NCBI GenBank assembly: GCA_030539115.1
Contig: JAUNSR010000011.1
Location: forward strand, 1 to 64,000
DNA length: 64,000 nucleotides
Direction: 5' to 3'
Source: Bacteroidales bacterium
GTDB lineage: Bacteria; Bacteroidota; Bacteroidia; Bacteroidales; JAUNSR01
Shown here: piece after piece, positions 16,230-27,150 of the stretch
Layout of the letters: each line of letters starts with the position of its first letter
How positions within the stretch are numbered: the stretch's first letter is position 1
The notes under the pieces: generated by a model
Told to the model about the DNA's origin: nothing
Database searches by the model: none
What the model saw: only the letters and a program-made list of their open reading frames with translations
Program-made: the position numbers and the translations under genes

Positions 16230-17483
16230 ATGAATAATAAGCTTAGGCATTACTTTTTTTTATTTTCCCTTTTTACTTTCTCTTTGGTTTTTGGACAATC
16301 ATATTCTGTTGATAATGTCCCAAACGTCCAACTGAAAAATTCAAGGGAGTTCGTTTCTAATCCTGATAATATAATATCATCTCAAGCGGTTGACTCATTA
16401 AATGCAATGCTTTATAATTTAAGGACAGAAAGCAGTGCAGAGTTTGCGGTTGTTTTGCTGAATTCTATAGGAAACGAAAATCCGAAAACGTTTGCTGTTG
16501 AGCTCTTTAAAAAATGGGGCTTGGGGAAAAAGGACAAGGATAATGGACTTCTTCTTCTATTTGTAAACGATCAGCGAAAGGCTGTTACTGAGGTAGGCTA
16601 TGGACTCGAAGGTGTACTTCCTGACGCTATAAATAAAAGATTGATGATGAAATATATGTTTCCTTATTTTAAAGAGGATAATTATAATGAGGGAATGATT
16701 AAAGGGGTTGAGGCTTTTATCAAAGTTATGACCACTCCTGAAGCTCTTGCTGAAATAAAGAGTGAAATTGCAAATGACAATAAAAATGATGAAATCAATT
16801 GGAATATACTTATCTTTTGGTATCTGCTGATTTCCCTCATTGTTGCCTCTTTTATTGTCAGCTCTATACTTTCATCACTTAAACATTCTTTTAATAACCA
16901 GAGTTATACAAAATATAAAGCAATAATTGGGTATAAGGTGCCATTGACTTTCGCAATGATTCTTTTTCCTCTTACAATCATACCTGTCTATTTGTGGCTT
17001 AAACGCAGGCTTTATAAATTAAGAAACGGCAAACAGATTTGTGATGTCTGTCAGCATTCAATGAGAAAATTATCCGAAAGAGAGGAAGATGAATATTTGT
17101 CGGAGGCTGAGCAGACTGAGGAGAGAATTAATTCTGTTGATTATGATGTCTGGCTTTGTGATACTTGTAAGCATACAAGAATAATTCCTTATGAAACACA
17201 ATATACAAAATACAGCGAATGTCCTATCTGTCACAGTAAAGCATACTCTTTAGAGAGTGATAACATTTTGGTTGAGCCTACTCCTTTTAGTAAAGGCACA
17301 GGGCAAAAAAGTTATTACTGTCAGCATTGTCACAATAGAAATAAAATAAAATATATTATTCCTATGATAATTGTTGCGGGAGGCATAGGAAAAGGCGGAG
17401 GCTTTGGAGGCGGAGGCGGATTCTCAGGAGGCGGCTTCGGAGGAGGAAGAAGCGGAGGCGGTGGTGCATCAATCGGATGGTGA
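16230..17483 (+). CDS. TPM-domain membrane protein with Gly-rich tail
   Basis: The N-terminal signal peptide (1-23, ending FGQ) is followed by a TPM domain (about 40-170) recognisable by FAVVLLNSIG, FAVELFKKWGLGKKDKDNG and the GYGLEGVLPDA motif. Two hydrophobic segments follow (about 190-215 and 240-262). Next is a cysteine-rich region with at least four CxxC knuckles (CDVC, CDTC, CPIC, CQHC), probably a zinc ribbon. The protein ends in a GGGFGGGGGFSGGGFGGG-type tail. TPM proteins ending in Gly-rich tails (YgcG type) are widespread; a plant relative acts in photosystem II repair, but the bacterial role is unknown. The protein is probably membrane-anchored. The start 18 bases after dgt suggests an operon. 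Confidence 0.85.
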   Translation: MNNKLRHYFFLFSLFTFSLVFGQSYSVDNVPNVQLKNSREFVSNPDNIISSQAVDSLNAMLYNLRTESSAEFAVVLLNSIGNENPKTFAVELFKKWGLGKKDKDNGLLLLFVNDQRKAVTEVGYGLEGVLPDAINKRLMMKYMFPYFKEDNYNEGMIKGVEAFIKVMTTPEALAEIKSEIANDNKNDEINWNILIFWYLLISLIVASFIVSSILSSLKHSFNNQSYTKYKAIIGYKVPLTFAMILFPLTIIPVYLWLKRRLYKLRNGKQICDVCQHSMRKLSEREEDEYLSEAEQTEERINSVDYDVWLCDTCKHTRIIPYETQYTKYSECPICHSKAYSLESDNILVEPTPFSKGTGQKSYYCQHCHNRNKIKYIIPMIIVAGGIGKGGGFGGGGGFSGGGFGGGRSGGGGASIGW

Positions 17484-17958: not shown

Positions 17959-20670
17959 ATGAAAAATAGATACATAATTGCCATAATACTTTTAGTTTCT
18001 CTTTTTGCAGTTTCGTGCAAGAACAATACTAATAAGAAGGAATATATAGTTGGAGTCTCTCAATGTTCGCTTGATGACGCCTGGCGTGAGTCTATGGTTA
18101 AGGAACTTATGGTTGAAGCATCCAATTATGATAATATAAAGCTTATAATAAAAGATGCTCATAATGACAATGAACTTCAAAAAAAGCAATTGAAGGAACT
18201 TGTTGATGAGGGTTCCGACATACTTATTGTTTCTCCTTTCGAATCTAAACCATTGGTTTCAACAATAGAAGAGATTAATGAATCAGGTATTCCGGTTATT
18301 ATTACGGATAGAAAGATAGAAAGCGATAATTATCTGTCTTTTGTTGGTGCAGACAACTTTTCAATCGGAAAGATGGCTGGAGAATATGCCTTTGCCAATG
18401 CTCCTAAGAATGCCAATATCCTTGAAATACAAGGTCTTGCTACCTCTTCTCCCGCCAAGGAAAGGCATGATGGCTTTATGAGTGCCATGATTGATAGACA
18501 GGATGTTTCATTTAAGGAAGTAAAAGGGAATTGGTTATATTCTGATGTTAAAGAGATTGTAAAGAAAGATTCTTTCCCTGATATAAATTTTATTTACTCT
18601 CATAATGATATGATGGCTATTGCCGCCAGAGAAATTTTCGGAGAGAAAAATTCAAAAGGTGAGAATATAAAAATTATTGGTATTGATGCAACTCCCGAAG
18701 CCGGTCTTGAGGCTGTGGCAGATGGAAGAATAGATGCTTCTTTCCTTTATCCAACCGGCGCTCAGGAACTCATAAAAGTTGTAGAGGATATTATCAATGG
18801 CAAAAAGATAGACAAGAATATTATTCTTGAATCAGGCTCTGTAGAAAAAAGAGCAGCCCAGAGTTTAATTCTTCAGTCAAAGAAAATGTTCCATTATCAG
18901 GAACAGATTCAAAAGCAGGCTTCAAAATTGGATGTTCTTTTCAATCAATATAATTTTATGACTACCTCCTTAGTAGTTATATCTTTACTGATGATCGGTT
19001 TTATCCTCCTCTCTGGATATGTTTACGTCGTTAATCACAGGATAAAAAGAGTAAACAATATTTTAAAGATGAAAAGCCTTAAGGAGGAGCAGCAAAATAA
19101 GAAACTTATTAAACTTAATGCCGAGATAGAGCAGGTCACTGCTCAAAAGCTTGCCTTTTTTACCAATGTTTCCCATGAAGTAAGGACTCCGTTGACTCTT
19201 ATTATCGGTCCCTTGGAGAGACTTATGCGTATTATGAATGAGAGTGAATATATATCGGATCTTGAATTGATTCATAAAAATGCATCCAGGCTTCTTCGTG
19301 TTATTAATCAAATACTTGATTTTAGAAAGGTTGAGAACAACAAGCAAACTCTAAAAATAGAAAAAACAGATATCATTGCCTTTACTGCAGAGGTTAAGAC
19401 ATATTTTGAAAAACTTGCCTCGATAAATAAGATTACATATACATTTGACACTGATATTAAAGAATCGAATATTTGGATCGATCAGGACCTGATAGAAAAG
19501 GTTCTTGTCAATCTGCTTTCAAATGCTTTTAAGTTTACAGAGAACAATGGCAATGTTTCAATCAGAATTTGGGACAATCACGACCGAGTGTTCATCTCGG
19601 TTAGAAATTCCGGTAAAGGAATAGAACAGAATAAAATAAATCATCTTTTTGACCGCTTTTATACCGACAGAAAGCAAGGCAGCTCAGGCACCGGCATCGG
19701 TCTTCATCTTGTAAAAGAGTATGTATCTATGCATAAAGGGGAGATTAAAGTTGACAGCAGCGTTAACAATTATGCTGAGTTTACATTTTTTCTTCCTAAG
19801 AATAAAGATATTCTGCTTGGTGAGAATGTTGCTGAGATTGACAACACTCTTAAAGAAAGTGTTGACAATGTCCTTAACGATGAGCTTCATAAAGAGATGC
19901 TTTCCAAAGTATATCCTTACACTGTTCTTGTAGTTGATGACGAAGATGATGTAAGAGAATATCTAAAAAGTGAGCTGTGTGATAATTTTAATGTTATTAC
20001 AGCTTCTAATGGAAAGCAAGGATTGGATATTCTACTAAAAGAAGATGTTTCCATAGTTTTAAGTGACGTAATGATGCCTGAGATGAACGGCTTTGATTTA
20101 TGCAAAAAAATAAAATCAGATATTGCAATTTCTCATATTCCTGTGATATTGCTCACTGCTCTGTCAGATATCAAACAGCAAATATATGGAATCACAGAGG
20201 GAGCCGACGCTTATATTAAAAAGCCATTCCATATTGATTTCTTAAAAGTCAAAATCATAAGCTTGCTTCAGCAAAGAGAAGTTTTAAGAGAAAAAATTAT
20301 CAGTGATTTGAACAATGGTCTAATTCCTGCTTTGTCACATGAAAAGGTTGAGTCGATGGACGATTTGTTTTTAAACAAATTCATGGAACAGTTGGAAAAA
20401 GTTTATTCTGACGCTGACTATAACATAGAAAAACTTAGCGAAGTGATGAATATGTCAAGAGGTCATTTGCATAGAAAAATAAAAAACCTTACAGGCATTA
20501 CTCCTGTTGAACTTCTAAGGAATTACCGACTCTCTAAGGCTGCCCAAATGCTGAAAGAAAAGAGATATAATGTAAATGAGATAACTTATATGACAGGTTT
20601 TTCCTCTCCCGCGTATTTTTCAAAATGCTTTAAATCAGTTTATAACACTACTCCGACCGATTATAAATAG
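17959..20670 (+). CDS. hybrid two-component sensor/AraC regulator, fructose type
   Basis: One 903-residue protein combining sensing and transcription control. In order: a signal sequence ending AVSC (Cys20); a periplasmic type-I sugar-binding fold (about 30-300, with VGVSQCSLDDAWR, IVSPFE, PVIITDRKI and FIYSHNDMMA); a transmembrane helix (about 335-360); a histidine kinase with His406 in SHEVRTP, an N box around Asn522 and G boxes; a receiver with Asp703; and an AraC-type helix-turn-helix (about 800-903). Sugar-binding-domain hybrids of this layout sense monosaccharides. The characterised Bacteroides thetaiotaomicron example BT1754 binds fructose and drives fructan use. Position next to GH32 and fructokinase genes fits the same ligand. 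Likely targets are the genes just downstream. Confidence 0.93.
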   Translation: MKNRYIIAIILLVSLFAVSCKNNTNKKEYIVGVSQCSLDDAWRESMVKELMVEASNYDNIKLIIKDAHNDNELQKKQLKELVDEGSDILIVSPFESKPLVSTIEEINESGIPVIITDRKIESDNYLSFVGADNFSIGKMAGEYAFANAPKNANILEIQGLATSSPAKERHDGFMSAMIDRQDVSFKEVKGNWLYSDVKEIVKKDSFPDINFIYSHNDMMAIAAREIFGEKNSKGENIKIIGIDATPEAGLEAVADGRIDASFLYPTGAQELIKVVEDIINGKKIDKNIILESGSVEKRAAQSLILQSKKMFHYQEQIQKQASKLDVLFNQYNFMTTSLVVISLLMIGFILLSGYVYVVNHRIKRVNNILKMKSLKEEQQNKKLIKLNAEIEQVTAQKLAFFTNVSHEVRTPLTLIIGPLERLMRIMNESEYISDLELIHKNASRLLRVINQILDFRKVENNKQTLKIEKTDIIAFTAEVKTYFEKLASINKITYTFDTDIKESNIWIDQDLIEKVLVNLLSNAFKFTENNGNVSIRIWDNHDRVFISVRNSGKGIEQNKINHLFDRFYTDRKQGSSGTGIGLHLVKEYVSMHKGEIKVDSSVNNYAEFTFFLPKNKDILLGENVAEIDNTLKESVDNVLNDELHKEMLSKVYPYTVLVVDDEDDVREYLKSELCDNFNVITASNGKQGLDILLKEDVSIVLSDVMMPEMNGFDLCKKIKSDIAISHIPVILLTALSDIKQQIYGITEGADAYIKKPFHIDFLKVKIISLLQQREVLREKIISDLNNGLIPALSHEKVESMDDLFLNKFMEQLEKVYSDADYNIEKLSEVMNMSRGHLHRKIKNLTGITPVELLRNYRLSKAAQMLKEKRYNVNEITYMTGFSSPAYFSKCFKSVYNTTPTDYK

Positions 20671-20681
20671 CATTATATATA

Positions 20682-20748
20682 ACAATTGTCGCATTAATGA
20701 TACAAATGTTTTATATGTGACAATTGTTATGTTTTTTATTTCAAATGT
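20682..20748. promoter_or_regulatory. four phased CAAWTGT boxes, candidate operator of the hybrid regulator
   Basis: The motif (A/T)CAA(T/A)TGT occurs at 20682, 20702, 20720 and 20741, so spacings are 20, 18 and 21 bases, about two helical turns each. The first and third copies also lie in a near-perfect 16-bp inverted repeat (20679-20694 and 20715-20730). The array begins 12 bases after the regulator stop codon and ends 25 bases before a -7 element. That is the expected place for an AraC-type activator. The inverted repeat is followed by a short T-run, so it could also serve as a terminator. Confidence 0.55.
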
Positions 20749-20773
20749 TATAATCAAAAAAATTCCGCGAATC

Positions 20774-20781
20774 TATTTTTG
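20774..20781 (+). promoter_or_regulatory. -7 element of the fructan operon
   Basis: TATTTTTG followed by GACC matches TAnnTTTG, 34 bases before the ATG of the outer-membrane gene. There is no -33 TTTG at about 19 bases upstream, which is consistent with an activator-dependent promoter served by the boxes at 20682-20748. Confidence 0.55.
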
Positions 20782-20815
20782 GACCGTTTTCAATCTCTAA
20801 CGATTAACTTAGATT

Positions 20816-23116
20816 ATGCAGAATAAAACAACCATTAAAACCGCAGCAATTTGTCTTTGTGCAACAATGATTACAATAAATGTATCTGCACAGGAGAAAA
20901 ATGATTCTATCGATGTTAACAGCAAAAAGACCAATGAAGAGGGCAACAGAAATGTGATGCTTAATGCTTCTAACGCAAATGGCCCGAGAGAAATCTCTAT
21001 AGGCTTGCCAGGAGGCGATGTCAACGTTTTGGAAAATGGTCTTCCCGTAGTTTTTGCAACTAATCCCCATAGTGTTGAGACTCATTGGCGTTCGGACGGC
21101 AGTTTAAGCCATGTCGGACTTCTTAAGATTACAGAAACAGCCATTACCACCGGTAATATTGGCTATGCTGTCAATTCTTTCTCTGAGTTGGGAAGTGAGG
21201 GTTTTAAAGGTAAAGTCAATTATTCAACAAATCATTTTGGAAAACAGCAATTTGATATCAATATTAATGGTAATATTGGCAAAGACTGGTTTTACAGCGG
21301 AAGTATTTATCAAAACTTTGATCCGGGCAGCACAAAGATGGTATTTACTCCTTTTCAAGACAAGACATCAATCTATAAGGCTGCCATAACAAAAAAATAC
21401 AACAACAATAAAGGCAGTTTGTCTGTCATTTATCATTATAGCAACTCCAATGCTTTATCTACAGCCTCTACAGCTGCTCCTTTTATTTATGTTGGAGACG
21501 GAAGTGTTGAGCAGATTCCGGGTTTCTCTTTAGGAACAAGTTCTTATCTTCCTTCAAACGGAGAACTTGTTTATATGGATATCAAAACAGGAGAGATAAA
21601 AAAGACTACCCTTAATGATGCTTCCAAAAATAGAGGAAATGAAATTTCTCTTATAAATACCTATAAGTGGAATAACGGGTTGGAATGGAAAACAATGTTT
21701 AAATATGACGATGCTTTAGGATCAAGAATCTATCAAACACCGATGTCTCTTGAAATGAAATCAGTGTCAGACGGTTATAAGCTTGTCAACAATGATGGTT
21801 CTCTTTCAGATTATAAGGGATATGTGCAAAGCAGAATGTCTTGTTTCAACAGAGGAGATATTAAAGACATCCTTTTGACAAGCGAGCTTTCACAAAAGAA
21901 CAGTAATAACACTTGGCGAATTGGTATAAACCAGTGGCACTATATAGTAGACTATTCATCAAATACTTCAATGTATGATCAAACTGTTGAAGCGAGTCCT
22001 TCAAGACTTACAAAGGATGGAACGACATTCTATTATGATTTTAACAAGAATGCTTCCGAATACTATAAAGGAAATGAAAATAAATTAGCCATTTATGGCA
22101 ATCATGAATGGAATGTTACAGATAAATTTGATGTTTATTATGGTGCAAGAGTTGAATATCAGAGATTAAAAGGCGAAAATGCCGCTGTTTATGCCAATGA
22201 CGGCACTGCTGTCGGCAGATTCCCGAACTATCATTTAGGAGCAACTTATAATGTTAATGGAATGACCGGTGTAATTGCCGCACAGCCTTTTGAATACAAT
22301 TGGATTAACGGTGCTTTTACAGCTGCATTGACCTATAAGTTTAATAATAACTTTGGTTTGACAGGTGACTTTACTTATAATTCTCAGCATGTAAAGATGG
22401 AGAGTTTTTCACCTGCCGAGCTTCCAAACACAGGCAGGGTAATAATACCTCTTGCTCAGGGCGGCTTTTATTACAACAACGATTGGGTGAGTCTTACCTC
22501 TCTTGTTTCCTATATTTCAAAGAGCAACAACAACTCAACTCTCAATTTAATCAATCCTGACGATGCCTCTGAGATTAAAGCTGCACCTTTATGCTATGAT
22601 ATCCAGACTCTTGGATGGACAACTGACGCTGTTGTCAAGCCATTTAAGAATTTTGATGTTCATATGAGATTTACATATCAAAATCCAACTTATAAGAAAT
22701 ATGAGACCAGTGTAACTTTTGTCAACGGCAAGACTCAAACTATTGACGTTACCGGAAATACGGTGACAGAGATTCCGAAAGTGCTTATTGAAATCGATCC
22801 GAGCTACTATATAACTGAAAAGCTTAAGCTTTGGGCAAGTTTCAGATATTTCAGCAAGACTTATGCTAACATTGAGAATGCTTATTTCTTTAATGGAAGA
22901 TGGGAAACTTTTGGAGGCTTAAACTGGAAAGTAAACAAAAATCTCTCTTTGGGAACTACCGTCATTAATTTCCTTAATCAGACCGGTGCAAGCGGAAGCA
23001 TTGCCGGGGCTGAGCTTACCAAAAAAGAGGATGCCTCTTTACATAATGGAAAATGGATGGCAGGAAGTTATATAAGGCCATTTACTGTTGAATTTTCAGC
23101 AAACATTACTTTCTAA
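20816..23116 (+). CDS. TonB-dependent receptor-like outer-membrane barrel
   Basis: A 766-residue secreted protein: the signal peptide ends near VSAQ (about residue 24). A short plug-like segment follows (ISIGLPGGDVNVLENGLP, then VGLLKITE and SGFAVNSF-like strands). The remainder is long alternating beta-strands ending in SANITF, a typical aromatic outer-membrane C-terminus. It is shorter than SusC proteins (about 1000) and lacks the N-terminal carboxypeptidase-regulatory-like domain. No SusD follows. Being first in the fructan operon, it probably imports fructo-oligosaccharides. Whether it truly depends on TonB is unclear because I could not see a clear TonB box. Confidence 0.7.
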   Translation: MQNKTTIKTAAICLCATMITINVSAQEKNDSIDVNSKKTNEEGNRNVMLNASNANGPREISIGLPGGDVNVLENGLPVVFATNPHSVETHWRSDGSLSHVGLLKITETAITTGNIGYAVNSFSELGSEGFKGKVNYSTNHFGKQQFDININGNIGKDWFYSGSIYQNFDPGSTKMVFTPFQDKTSIYKAAITKKYNNNKGSLSVIYHYSNSNALSTASTAAPFIYVGDGSVEQIPGFSLGTSSYLPSNGELVYMDIKTGEIKKTTLNDASKNRGNEISLINTYKWNNGLEWKTMFKYDDALGSRIYQTPMSLEMKSVSDGYKLVNNDGSLSDYKGYVQSRMSCFNRGDIKDILLTSELSQKNSNNTWRIGINQWHYIVDYSSNTSMYDQTVEASPSRLTKDGTTFYYDFNKNASEYYKGNENKLAIYGNHEWNVTDKFDVYYGARVEYQRLKGENAAVYANDGTAVGRFPNYHLGATYNVNGMTGVIAAQPFEYNWINGAFTAALTYKFNNNFGLTGDFTYNSQHVKMESFSPAELPNTGRVIIPLAQGGFYYNNDWVSLTSLVSYISKSNNNSTLNLINPDDASEIKAAPLCYDIQTLGWTTDAVVKPFKNFDVHMRFTYQNPTYKKYETSVTFVNGKTQTIDVTGNTVTEIPKVLIEIDPSYYITEKLKLWASFRYFSKTYANIENAYFFNGRWETFGGLNWKVNKNLSLGTTVINFLNQTGASGSIAGAELTKKEDASLHNGKWMAGSYIRPFTVEFSANITF

Positions 23117-23180
23117 AATTATTCATACAAAAAAGATATTTATAATAACAATAATATTTATACAAATAATCGACAACATA

Positions 23181-25043
23181 ATGAAACCTATAATTATACC
23201 AATCATTTCTTTATTTGCCTCCTCGATGATGCTCTCCTCATGCAGCAGCTCTGTCAAGGATTTAAACATCTCCAAAATCAATGAATCGATTTCTATTGTT
23301 GAGGTTAATAAGCCTTCAAAATATATTCTTCTTCCTATTCAGGAAGATGCGCAGGAATCAAAGGTAAAGCTTATGACCGGCTCTAAAGCCGATACAGAGA
23401 TGGACGTTCGAATAGCAAATAACAGGATTGATTATTATGTGCCGTTTGCTTTAACTGCAAATAATACAAATAAGGTGGAGATAAAAAATCCTTCGTTAAA
23501 TTCAATTTTATTTGATTCAATTAAGGTTAGTGACAGTTTCGATGCTCAAAACAGAGAAAGATTTCGCCCCCTTTATCATCATACACCTCTTTATGGCTGG
23601 ATGAATGATGCCAATGGACTTGTGTATAAAGATGGTGAATATCACCTTTATTTCCAATACAATCCTTATGGATCTATGTGGGGAAATATGCATTGGGGAC
23701 ACTCAGTGAGCAAAGACTTAGTAAATTGGGAACATCTCCCGGCAGCTATTGAAAGAGATACTCTCGGTCATATTTTTTCAGGGAGCTCAGTTGTGGATTT
23801 CAACAACAGTGCAAATTATGGCGACAACACTATCGTCTCTTTCTATACCTCAGCAAGCGACAAAAACGGTCAAATTCAATGCATGGCTTATTCAAAAGAC
23901 AATGGTAACACATTTACCAAATATGAAAAGAACCCTATTCTAACCTCCGAGCTCAAAGATTTTCGTGATCCTAAAGTTTTTTGGTATGCTCCTCAAAATA
24001 AATGGATAATGATTGTCTCTGCCGATAAGGAGATGAGATTTTATCAGTCTAAGGACTTAAAGCAATGGGATTACATGAGCGCATTTGGAAAAGGCTATGG
24101 CGCCTTGCCAAGTCAGTTTGAATGTCCTGATATGGTTGAACTGCCTGTTGATGGGAATCCTGATAAAAAGAAATGGGCTTTAATAGTAAATATTAATCCC
24201 GGAGGATTGTTTGGCGGAAGTGCCACACAATATTTTGTAGGTGATTTCGATGGTGAAAAATTTATTTGCAACACTGAACCAAATGAAGTAAAATGGCTCG
24301 ATTGGGGTAAAGATCATTATGCAACAGTTACATTCTCTAATACTTCCGATAGAGTGATTGCCGTGCCTTGGATGAGCAATTGGCAATATTGCCAAATTGT
24401 TCCTACAAAACAATTTAGAAGCGCCAATGCTTTGCCAAGAGAATTGACAATGTATTCTCAGGACAACAATGTTTTCCTTGCTGCAAACCCTGTCGCTGAA
24501 ACTCTTAAACTTAGAAAAGAGACTAAGTCTTTTAATAATATTGATCTGTCAAAGGATTACGTTATTGAGTCGATGCTTGATGATAATCAAGGTGCCTATG
24601 AAATTGAGATGAGTATAACATCTTTAAGGCCTGATTATGACTTGACCCTTCAACTGACAAATTCATTGGGTGAGTATGTTGACATTACTCTTGATTCTGA
24701 AAATAATAAGATAATAATGGATAGAAGCAAGAGTGGAATTGTTGATTTCGGCGCTGATTCCAAACCTCATGAAATAGAAAATCATGATAATAGAAAGACA
24801 AATTCAATTAATTATATCAACGATTTTGCTTTAGGTACATGGGCTCCGTTGGCAAATAATGAAAAAAGTCATAAACTTAGAATATTTGTAGATAGATGCT
24901 CTGTTGAAATATTCCTTGACAATGGTAAAGTGGTTATGACAAATCTTGTTTTCCCTAATGAGTGGTATAATACACTTAAACTTATCAATAAAAAAGGAAA
25001 GGTTAATGTTGACGAGCTAAACATTTATAAATTGTCGCTTTAA
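23181..25043 (+). CDS. GH32 fructan hydrolase lipoprotein (levanase/inulinase)
   Basis: Hydrolyses beta-fructosides (levan, inulin, sucrose or fructo-oligosaccharides). The three GH32 catalytic positions are present: nucleophile Asp143 in WMNDANG, Asp263 in FRDP, and acid/base Glu314 in ECPD. The five-bladed propeller is followed by a C-terminal beta-sandwich with FVDRCSVEIFLDNG. An N-terminal region of about 100 residues precedes the catalytic domain, as in many Bacteroidetes GH32 enzymes. I chose the ATG at 23181 because it begins a lipoprotein signal (MMLSSCSSS). An upstream in-frame TTG at 23088 would overlap the barrel gene and add an implausible leader. It lacks a G-rich surface-export signal after the lipid cysteine, so cell-surface or periplasmic location is open. 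Confidence 0.93.
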   Translation: MKPIIIPIISLFASSMMLSSCSSSVKDLNISKINESISIVEVNKPSKYILLPIQEDAQESKVKLMTGSKADTEMDVRIANNRIDYYVPFALTANNTNKVEIKNPSLNSILFDSIKVSDSFDAQNRERFRPLYHHTPLYGWMNDANGLVYKDGEYHLYFQYNPYGSMWGNMHWGHSVSKDLVNWEHLPAAIERDTLGHIFSGSSVVDFNNSANYGDNTIVSFYTSASDKNGQIQCMAYSKDNGNTFTKYEKNPILTSELKDFRDPKVFWYAPQNKWIMIVSADKEMRFYQSKDLKQWDYMSAFGKGYGALPSQFECPDMVELPVDGNPDKKKWALIVNINPGGLFGGSATQYFVGDFDGEKFICNTEPNEVKWLDWGKDHYATVTFSNTSDRVIAVPWMSNWQYCQIVPTKQFRSANALPRELTMYSQDNNVFLAANPVAETLKLRKETKSFNNIDLSKDYVIESMLDDNQGAYEIEMSITSLRPDYDLTLQLTNSLGEYVDITLDSENNKIIMDRSKSGIVDFGADSKPHEIENHDNRKTNSINYINDFALGTWAPLANNEKSHKLRIFVDRCSVEIFLDNGKVVMTNLVFPNEWYNTLKLINKKGKVNVDELNIYKLSL

Positions 25044-25097
25044 GATACTCTCTTTTTAAATATTACGAATTACTTACAAAACAACCATACAACATTT

Positions 25098-26258
25098 ATG
25101 AATCAGGTTAAAAATATATATTTAAAACTTATACCGGTGATGATTGCATTCTTTGCCATGGGGTTTGTCGACCTTGTTGGCATTGCTGCCAATTATGTAA
25201 AAGCCGATTTCAATCTCAGCGATACGACAGCCAATCTATTGCCTTCAATGGTGTTTTTTTGGTTCCTTATTTTTTCTGTTCCAACCGGAATGTTGATGAA
25301 TAAGATAGGGCGAAGAAAAACAGTAATATTAAGTCTTGCCATTACAGTTGTGTCATTGTTGATACCTGTTTTAAACTACAGCTTCACATCAATGCTTATC
25401 TCTTTTTCTCTTTTGGGAATCGGCAATGCAATAATGCAGGTATCTCTTAATCCGCTCCTTTCCAATCTTATCAGTGGCGATAAGTTGGCGAGCTCTCTTA
25501 CATTTGGACAATTTGTAAAGGCAATAGCATCATTTATCGCTCCTATTATTGCGGGATGGGCTGCCTTTAGCTTCGGAAACTGGCGGTTGCTATATCCAAT
25601 CTTTATGTTTATAGCTGTTTTGGCGGTAATTTTATTGGGCATTATAAGGATTAAAGAAAACGACAACTCTCAAGAGAAGTTCTCCACTTTTAAGCAATGC
25701 TTTTCTCTTCTTGGAAACAGCTTTGTGCTTTTATCTTTCCTGGGGATTATGTGCCATGTCGGGGTTGATGTGGGAACAAATGTCACTGCCCCTAAGATAT
25801 TGATGGAGAGATTGGGGCTGACGCTTGCCGAGGCTGGCTATGCAACAAGTATTTATTTTCTTTTCCGTACTTTAGGATGTTTTTCGGGCACCTTTATTCT
25901 TGCCAAGATCTCTTCAAAAAAATTCTTCGCTCTAAGTACATTATTAATGCTTTTTGGAATGTCGGGATTGCTCTTTGCTCAATCGGAAATACTGTTTTAT
26001 ATTTGTATTGCCCTGATTGGTTTTGGAAATTCAAATATTTTCCCTGTAATTTTCTCTCAAGCTCTTTTGCATCTTCCAAATAAGCAGAATGAGGTTTCAG
26101 GTCTTATGATCATGGGACTTTTTGGCGGCACTGTTTTCCCTATTCTCATGGGGATTGCCTCTGATGCCTTGATGTCTCAAATCGGTGCTGTAATTGTTAT
26201 GCTTGTCGGGGTTGTTTATCTTATCAGTTATACTGTAAATATTAAAAAATTTAATTAA
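25098..26258 (+). CDS. MFS sugar transporter
   Basis: Inner-membrane transporter of 386 residues with about 12 hydrophobic helices. It carries a loop motif (MLMNKIGRRKTV) of the major facilitator type between helices 2 and 3. It resembles the FucP-like sugar:proton symporters that accompany fructan operons in Bacteroides (for example next to the fructokinase gene). It would import fructose released by the GH32 enzyme. The 54-base spacing from GH32 and one base to the kinase gene indicate an operon. Confidence 0.85.
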   Translation: MNQVKNIYLKLIPVMIAFFAMGFVDLVGIAANYVKADFNLSDTTANLLPSMVFFWFLIFSVPTGMLMNKIGRRKTVILSLAITVVSLLIPVLNYSFTSMLISFSLLGIGNAIMQVSLNPLLSNLISGDKLASSLTFGQFVKAIASFIAPIIAGWAAFSFGNWRLLYPIFMFIAVLAVILLGIIRIKENDNSQEKFSTFKQCFSLLGNSFVLLSFLGIMCHVGVDVGTNVTAPKILMERLGLTLAEAGYATSIYFLFRTLGCFSGTFILAKISSKKFFALSTLLMLFGMSGLLFAQSEILFYICIALIGFGNSNIFPVIFSQALLHLPNKQNEVSGLMIMGLFGGTVFPILMGIASDALMSQIGAVIVMLVGVVYLISYTVNIKKFN

Positions 26259-26259
26259 A

Positions 26260-27150
26260 ATGAAAAACATAGTTGTTGGGTTGGGGGAAGCTCTTTGGGA
26301 TCTTCTTCCTGAAGGGAAAAAACTTGGTGGCGCCCCTGCTAATTTTGCATACAATGTCTCTCAATTGGGAATCGAGTCTTACGTTGTAAGTGCTGTTGGT
26401 AATGATGTTCTTGGAAAAGAGATACTTGAAGTCTTTGACTCTAAAAATATGAAGTATATCATTAATAGAGTTGACAAAAAAACAGGCTCAGTAAATGTAG
26501 AACTTGACAGCAACGGAATCCCGAGCTATGAGATAATACAAGATGTTGCATGGGATAATATGACTCTTACTGATGAGATAATTGAACTTGCATCTAAGAC
26601 TACTGCCGTTTGTTTCGGCTCTTTGGCTCAAAGAGGAGCTAAAAGCAGAAAGATGATTAACGGCTTCATCGATGCAATGCCAAATAATGACAAGGTTTTG
26701 AAAATTTTTGATATAAATCTCCGTCAGAATTATTTCTCGAAAGATATTGTCGTTGACTCTCTGAAAAGATGCAATGTCTTGAAAATAAATGACGAGGAAC
26801 TTATTGTTGTCTCTCATTTGCTCGGGTATATTACAACTGAGCCGGATCATGTGTGCCGTCAGCTTATCAAGGACTACAATCTTAAAATGCTTATACTTAC
26901 CTGCGGAACAAAAGGCAGCTCAATCTATTATGATAATGAAATCTCATTTATGGATACTCCAAAAGTAAAAGTTGCAGACACCGTAGGTGCAGGCGATTCG
27001 TTTACTGCAGCATTTTGTGTCTCAATACTTAATGGAAAATCGATTAAAGAGGCTCATAAAAATGCTGTTCAAGTATCTGCTTATATCTGCACTTGTGCGG
27101 GAGCCATGCCTTTATTGCCTAAATCTTTTGTAGATGCAGTAAATAATTAG
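26260..27150 (+). CDS. fructokinase, PfkB family
   Basis: Phosphorylates the imported sugar, most likely fructose to fructose-6-phosphate. The ribokinase/PfkB signatures are visible: GEALWDLLPEGKKLGGAPANFA near the N-terminus (residues about 8-29, with the sugar-contacting GGAPAN), and the C-terminal DTVGAGDSFTAAF motif with the catalytic Asp at about residue 247. The length of 296 residues is typical. It starts one base after the transporter stop codon and ends the fructan operon before a bidirectional terminator. Confidence 0.92.
   Translation: MKNIVVGLGEALWDLLPEGKKLGGAPANFAYNVSQLGIESYVVSAVGNDVLGKEILEVFDSKNMKYIINRVDKKTGSVNVELDSNGIPSYEIIQDVAWDNMTLTDEIIELASKTTAVCFGSLAQRGAKSRKMINGFIDAMPNNDKVLKIFDINLRQNYFSKDIVVDSLKRCNVLKINDEELIVVSHLLGYITTEPDHVCRQLIKDYNLKMLILTCGTKGSSIYYDNEISFMDTPKVKVADTVGAGDSFTAAFCVSILNGKSIKEAHKNAVQVSAYICTCAGAMPLLPKSFVDAVNN

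Follow-up and report, generated by a model that had tools for sequence, protein, structure and literature searches.

Five open reading frames, all on the forward strand, occupy positions 17959–27150 of the window, i.e. of the whole 64,000-nt stretch of DNA analyzed here, which corresponds to contig 77 of a Bacteroidales genome assembly (3.37 Mb in 89 contigs; ~90% complete). An ORF check placed the genes where the original prediction had them, and its chain of regulator, outer-membrane barrel, GH32 enzyme, MFS porter and fructokinase was borne out by the ORF coordinates together with Pfam matches. The first gene (17959–20670) encodes a hybrid two-component regulator of the BT1754/HTCS_Fru type, whose domain set is complete: a periplasmic sugar-binding sensor (Peripla_BP_4, PF13407, 1e-38), a histidine kinase (HisKA and HATPase, PF02518), a receiver (Response_reg, PF00072) and an AraC-type HTH (HTH_18, PF12833). 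It is followed by an outer-membrane barrel of 766 aa (20816–23116), assigned from AlphaFold, Foldseek and conservation. The third gene (23181–25043) specifies a GH32 beta-fructosidase of 620 aa with the lipoprotein signal LSSC; its start codon is ATG (23181) rather than TTG (23088). Both the N and the C domain (PF00251, 2e-88; PF08244, 6e-29) are present in this enzyme alongside DUF4980 (PF16352, 2e-28), and the motifs WMNDANG, RDP and ECP, with the catalytic Asp, the RDP Asp and the Glu, are intact. The last two genes encode an MFS porter (25098–26258; PF07690, MFS_1, 2e-41), predicted to import fructose across the inner membrane, and a PfkB-type fructokinase (26260–27150; PF00294, 8e-35) with the kinase motifs GGAPANFA and DTVGAGD. 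The top NCBIfam model for the latter was fructokinase NF006957, at a score under that model's cut-off.

As only 64, 54 and 1 bp separate the barrel, GH32, MFS and kinase genes, these four likely form one operon; the gap between regulator and barrel gene measures 145 bp. The same gene order recurs in dozens of genomes and is thus not due to chance. Directly upstream of the fructan locus, positions 16230–17483 encode a predicted membrane protein with a Gly-rich tail (GGGFGGGGGFSGGG...).

The region between regulator and barrel gene carries two kinds of conserved motif on the forward strand. Ahead of the barrel gene lies TATTTTTG (20774–20781), a Bacteroidetes-type –7 element (TAnnTTTG). Matches to TAnnTTTG were present in 53 of 58 regions upstream of related barrels, compared to 17 expected and a maximum of 26 in 100 shuffles; the 58 sequences are mutually related, so that neither this nor the following motif count consists of independent observations. 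Further upstream, CAAWTGTTWT occurs in three direct copies starting at 20703, 20721 and 20742 (20703–20752 overall), and ACAAATGTT was found upstream of 16 of the 58 related barrels vs. 0.6 expected in shuffles. The CAAWTGTTWT copies are candidate binding sites to which the regulator might attach.

Homology of the barrel, which is single-copy in the source genome, was detectable only with a family alignment: single-sequence searches of Pfam, the PDB and the genome contigs returned no Pfam model, no solved structure and no contig match. When profiles were searched with the family, 5 of 15 members weakly matched the TonB barrel PF00593 (best E 8e-6), the family alignment weakly matched 5fok in the PDB (E 2e-4), and no similarity to SusC emerged. 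An initial AlphaFold run with 15 sequences did not resolve the plug region, and the alignment was consequently enlarged to 80 sequences. In the resulting model (pLDDT 86.7, pTM 0.84), 22 barrel strands, counted by hand, span residues 131–766, and Foldseek retrieved Fiu, FhuA and PiuA at E about 1e-25. The barrel is preceded by a signal peptide (about residues 1–25), an unstructured linker, the sequence NRNVMLNA (44–51) and an ordered stretch of ~68 residues (about 58–125), and the protein ends in a terminal Phe. This ordered stretch amounts to roughly half a plug; a complete plug domain was not seen in the model, and a PF07715 search of the genome recovered 38 plugs, none of them in the barrel. 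FepA aligned weakly to the half plug (z 2.2), over the second half of its own plug, while alignment of FhuA and BtuB failed. As modeled, the 20816–23116 product combines the barrel of a TonB receptor with about half of a plug.

Neither SusC nor SusD was found in the 17959–27150 cluster, and the 20 SusD hits of the genome all lie on other contigs; here and below, statements on SusD are based on a genome SusD search plus locus inspection, as tblastn at E 1e-10 missed SusD. Together with AlphaFold and Foldseek, this search bears out the receptor-like barrel of 766 residues with a short plug and no SusD that had been proposed from the sequence. Classification of the barrel as a SusC itself was rejected: it has no SusD partner, no SusC profile similarity and no carboxypeptidase-like N-domain, with no Pfam or relevant NCBIfam match to an N-terminal carboxypeptidase-D-like or Plug domain, and comparison by hhalign with eight TonB-receptor/SusC proteins from its own genome gave a probability of 0.3%. 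The NRNVMLNA sequence is near-invariant across the 80 sequences and lies within the unstructured N-terminal part, at the place expected of a Ton box. On visual inspection it could pass for one, but scoring gave no support, with RNVMLNAS ranking only 11th to 24th of 732 8-mers against the E. coli Ton boxes of FepA, FhuA and BtuB.

When the family alignment was run against 84,980 genomes, 390 relatives emerged, of which the best 80 were kept. Among these 80 are members from B. fragilis, P. vulgatus, P. massiliensis, Prevotella, Segatella and Parabacteroides. Across the combined set, annotated by tblastn and biased to close relatives by its 80 loci chosen for similarity to the barrel family, the gene after the barrel encoded GH32 in 70 of the 85 loci with enough downstream sequence, and GH36 in four more. 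Exceptions include remote members as well as two Paraprevotella loci (L082, L097), which fall inside the GH32-linked barrel clade yet are devoid of an adjacent GH32. Within this clade, the barrel is conserved along with the GH32–MFS–fructokinase–regulator unit across Bacteroides, Phocaeicola, Prevotella and Parabacteroides. A set of 393 genomes from across the order, drawn irrespective of the barrel, contained 15 full-length members in 14 genomes. GH32 was the next gene for all five barrels of at least 59% identity and for none of the ten at 33–40%. Most of these ten have a gene for GH3, a carboxylesterase or an alkaline phosphatase as a neighbor, and a NUDIX/NrtR-type regulator is often present as well. 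Barrel members of other orders in the class are likewise paired with GH3 and a NUDIX/NrtR-type regulator.

GH32-linked barrels form a single clade (support 1.0), to which the GH36-linked barrels are the sister clade (0.99), and this split into separate clades argues that the barrel evolves with the sugar. The family is tied to glycosidases and did not prove unrelated to glycan uptake. In the sister clade (L128 8148–14518, L130, L132, L133), a gene for a DUF6377 regulator is divergent from a barrel–GH36 alpha-galactosidase pair, an arrangement that may represent a minimal locus for melibiose/raffinose and does without SusCD. GH36 alpha-galactosidase genes are also found within many GH32 operons, and downstream in L025, a member of the window's own genus; their frequency there points to sucrose/raffinose-type sugars. 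Remote barrels with a distinctive GH3, usually accompanied by a NUDIX/NrtR-type regulator, were noted at L026 (8096–12684), L035, L034, L036, L150, L151 and L153–L155. These barrel–GH3 loci of Bacteroidales and other Bacteroidia orders make up a second conserved hydrolase–barrel unit. In L037 (5114–9089), an alkaline phosphatase gene follows the barrel relative, which suggests a non-sugar or phosphorylated substrate for this branch. Yet another relative (L152, 8445–10787) is broken by one in-frame TGA stop and apparently decayed; an uninterrupted paralog (L154) exists in the same genome.

Published data on P. vulgatus bear on the GH32-linked unit. In strain ATCC 8482, the sole full GH32 of the genome (2148816–2149733; locus L061) adjoins the barrel. 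P. vulgatus no longer grew on levan, inulin or FOS after deletion of the putative exofructosidase BVU_1663 (PMC11405475), and as ATCC 8482 has no other full GH32, we infer that BVU_1663 is the barrel-linked enzyme. Loss of growth upon deletion implies that the parent grows on inulin, which conflicts with a report that describes a fructan locus without SusCD in P. vulgatus and states that this species does not use inulin (PMC6977353). The existence of a SusCD-free fructan locus was hence already known and, with the unit being widespread, the arrangement is not peculiar to the present locus. The family of half-plug barrels and the matching of its clades to hydrolases, on the other hand, appear to be new, since no description was found within the searchable literature.

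We consider a SusD-independent route for short fructosides the best reading of the locus, and a probable one. In B. thetaiotaomicron, BT1754 is a fructose sensor, and no other HTCS of this species has such a sensor type (PMC3878776). In the proposed mechanism, the operon would be induced by fructose and would serve short fructose-containing oligosaccharides, presumably sucrose, kestose-size FOS and possibly raffinose-type sugars. These would cross the outer membrane via the TonB-receptor-derived barrel, with its half-size plug and without a SusD lid, whereby the proposal allows for powering by TonB as well as for diffusion. A periplasm-facing GH32 would then cut the imported sugar, and the released fructose would be moved by the MFS porter to the cytoplasm side and phosphorylated by the fructokinase, while periplasmic fructose would activate the upstream hybrid regulator. 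Of the distinct route for fructo-oligosaccharides originally envisaged, what stands is a plug-poor barrel in the place of SusC/SusD, with uptake as its predicted role; specificity to this locus and a simple replacement of SusCD do not.

The place where GH32 acts bears on what the barrel would carry. Were the enzyme exposed at the cell surface, the barrel would import only released fructose (and glucose), and the window GH32 is indeed a lipoprotein, as are some Bacteroidetes surface enzymes. However, the residues after its Cys do not follow the acidic pattern of SusD: 26 of 32 lipoprotein GH32 proteins are devoid of acidic residues between +2 and +6, whereas 13 of 14 SusDs have one to three. 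Moreover, half of 64 GH32 orthologs have no lipobox by the pattern used; most Prevotella orthologs bear a plain signal peptide, and the orthologs found elsewhere are lipoproteins. From these signatures, the GH32 orthologs look periplasmic; missing acidic residues and plain signal peptides fit a periplasmic enzyme and the import of intact oligosaccharides. As general porins are also wide enough for fructose, we regard a surface GH32 with a barrel for its products as unlikely. A non-transporting barrel that anchors, exposes or secretes the neighboring hydrolase would account for the constant feature of the family, namely an adjacent secreted hydrolase (GH32, GH36, GH3, carboxylesterase or alkaline phosphatase), and the order-wide barrel–enzyme linkage could stem from an enzyme–barrel complex instead of transport. 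Such a role is nonetheless quite improbable given the TonB-receptor barrel fold with its plug remnant, hydrolases that are mutually unrelated and variably placed before or after the barrel, and the matching inner-membrane porter and kinase retained in the GH32 clade.

Alternatively, import might be achieved by a fructan SusC/SusD pair encoded at another site or in a portion absent from the ~90% complete assembly, with the barrel as an accessory. A barrel unit does adjoin a complete SusCD–GH32 fructan locus in several Phocaeicola and Bacteroides genomes (P. plebeius, P. coprocola, P. barnesiae and B. mediterraneensis), which implies that the unit complements rather than simply replaces SusCD. 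In the source genome, however, the protein most similar to a fructan-locus SusC shares only 33% identity with it, and neither of the two real GH32 genes is near SusC or any of the SusD hits; the second one (L054 17458–19098, contig 59) stands alone, without porter, kinase or SusCD and far from any SusD. In addition, six of ten named genomes checked possess just a single full GH32, which adjoins the barrel, with no SusCD within 10 kb. Import by a separate SusC/SusD pair is therefore very unlikely, and the fructan SusC/SusD pair that would have spoken against the original prediction was not found in this genome.

Beyond the SusD-independent route at this locus, it is conceivable, though we advance it only tentatively, that the barrels constitute an undescribed family of TonB-receptor descendants that have lost half the plug and now serve short glycosides as channels without a lid and possibly without need for TonB. 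Every clade would have a matching hydrolase (GH32, GH36, GH3, esterase or phosphatase), and the channels would operate across Bacteroidia alongside SusCD as the unexplained route for small oligosaccharides. How sucrose, FOS and raffinose enter through the outer membrane of gut Bacteroidales is unsettled, with the transporter for raffinose-type sugars being called unknown (PMC11501099) and passive diffusion being assumed for small FOS in levan-grown SusCD mutants of B. thetaiotaomicron (PMC7782687). A conserved, hydrolase-matched half-plug barrel offers a specific target for gene deletion in tractable strains, and bears on the need for a full plug and a SusD lid in sugar import. The prediction of prebiotic FOS users would also improve, as PUL finders that require SusCD miss barrel–GH32 loci.

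The window barrel shares 22 strands and a terminal aromatic residue with TonB-dependent receptors of the FhuA/Fiu/PiuA type, but is only 10–13% identical to these, has about half of the plug and no Ton box recognizable by scoring, and is encoded among sugar rather than iron genes. SusC proteins are also outer-membrane barrels of the same superfamily in sugar operons, yet comprise about 1,000 residues vs. 766. With the levan/fructan PUL BT1754–BT1765 of B. thetaiotaomicron, the locus has the regulator type, GH32, MFS porter and fructokinase in common (PMC7782687, PMC3878776), the position of the porter matching that of BT1758 (PMC7782687). That PUL, in contrast, features SusC/SusD (BT1763/BT1762), a surface endo-levanase and a surface glycan-binding protein, and has been described without a half-plug barrel. 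Another counterpart is L061 of P. vulgatus ATCC 8482, where barrel, GH32, MFS porter, fructokinase and HTCS occur as in the window, with about 65% barrel identity and no SusCD, but with the regulator downstream instead of upstream. The inulin PUL of S. copri DSM 18205 is likewise minimal, with one GH32, an MFS porter and a fructokinase (PMC11784079), and differs from the window locus in its canonical SusC/SusD pair.
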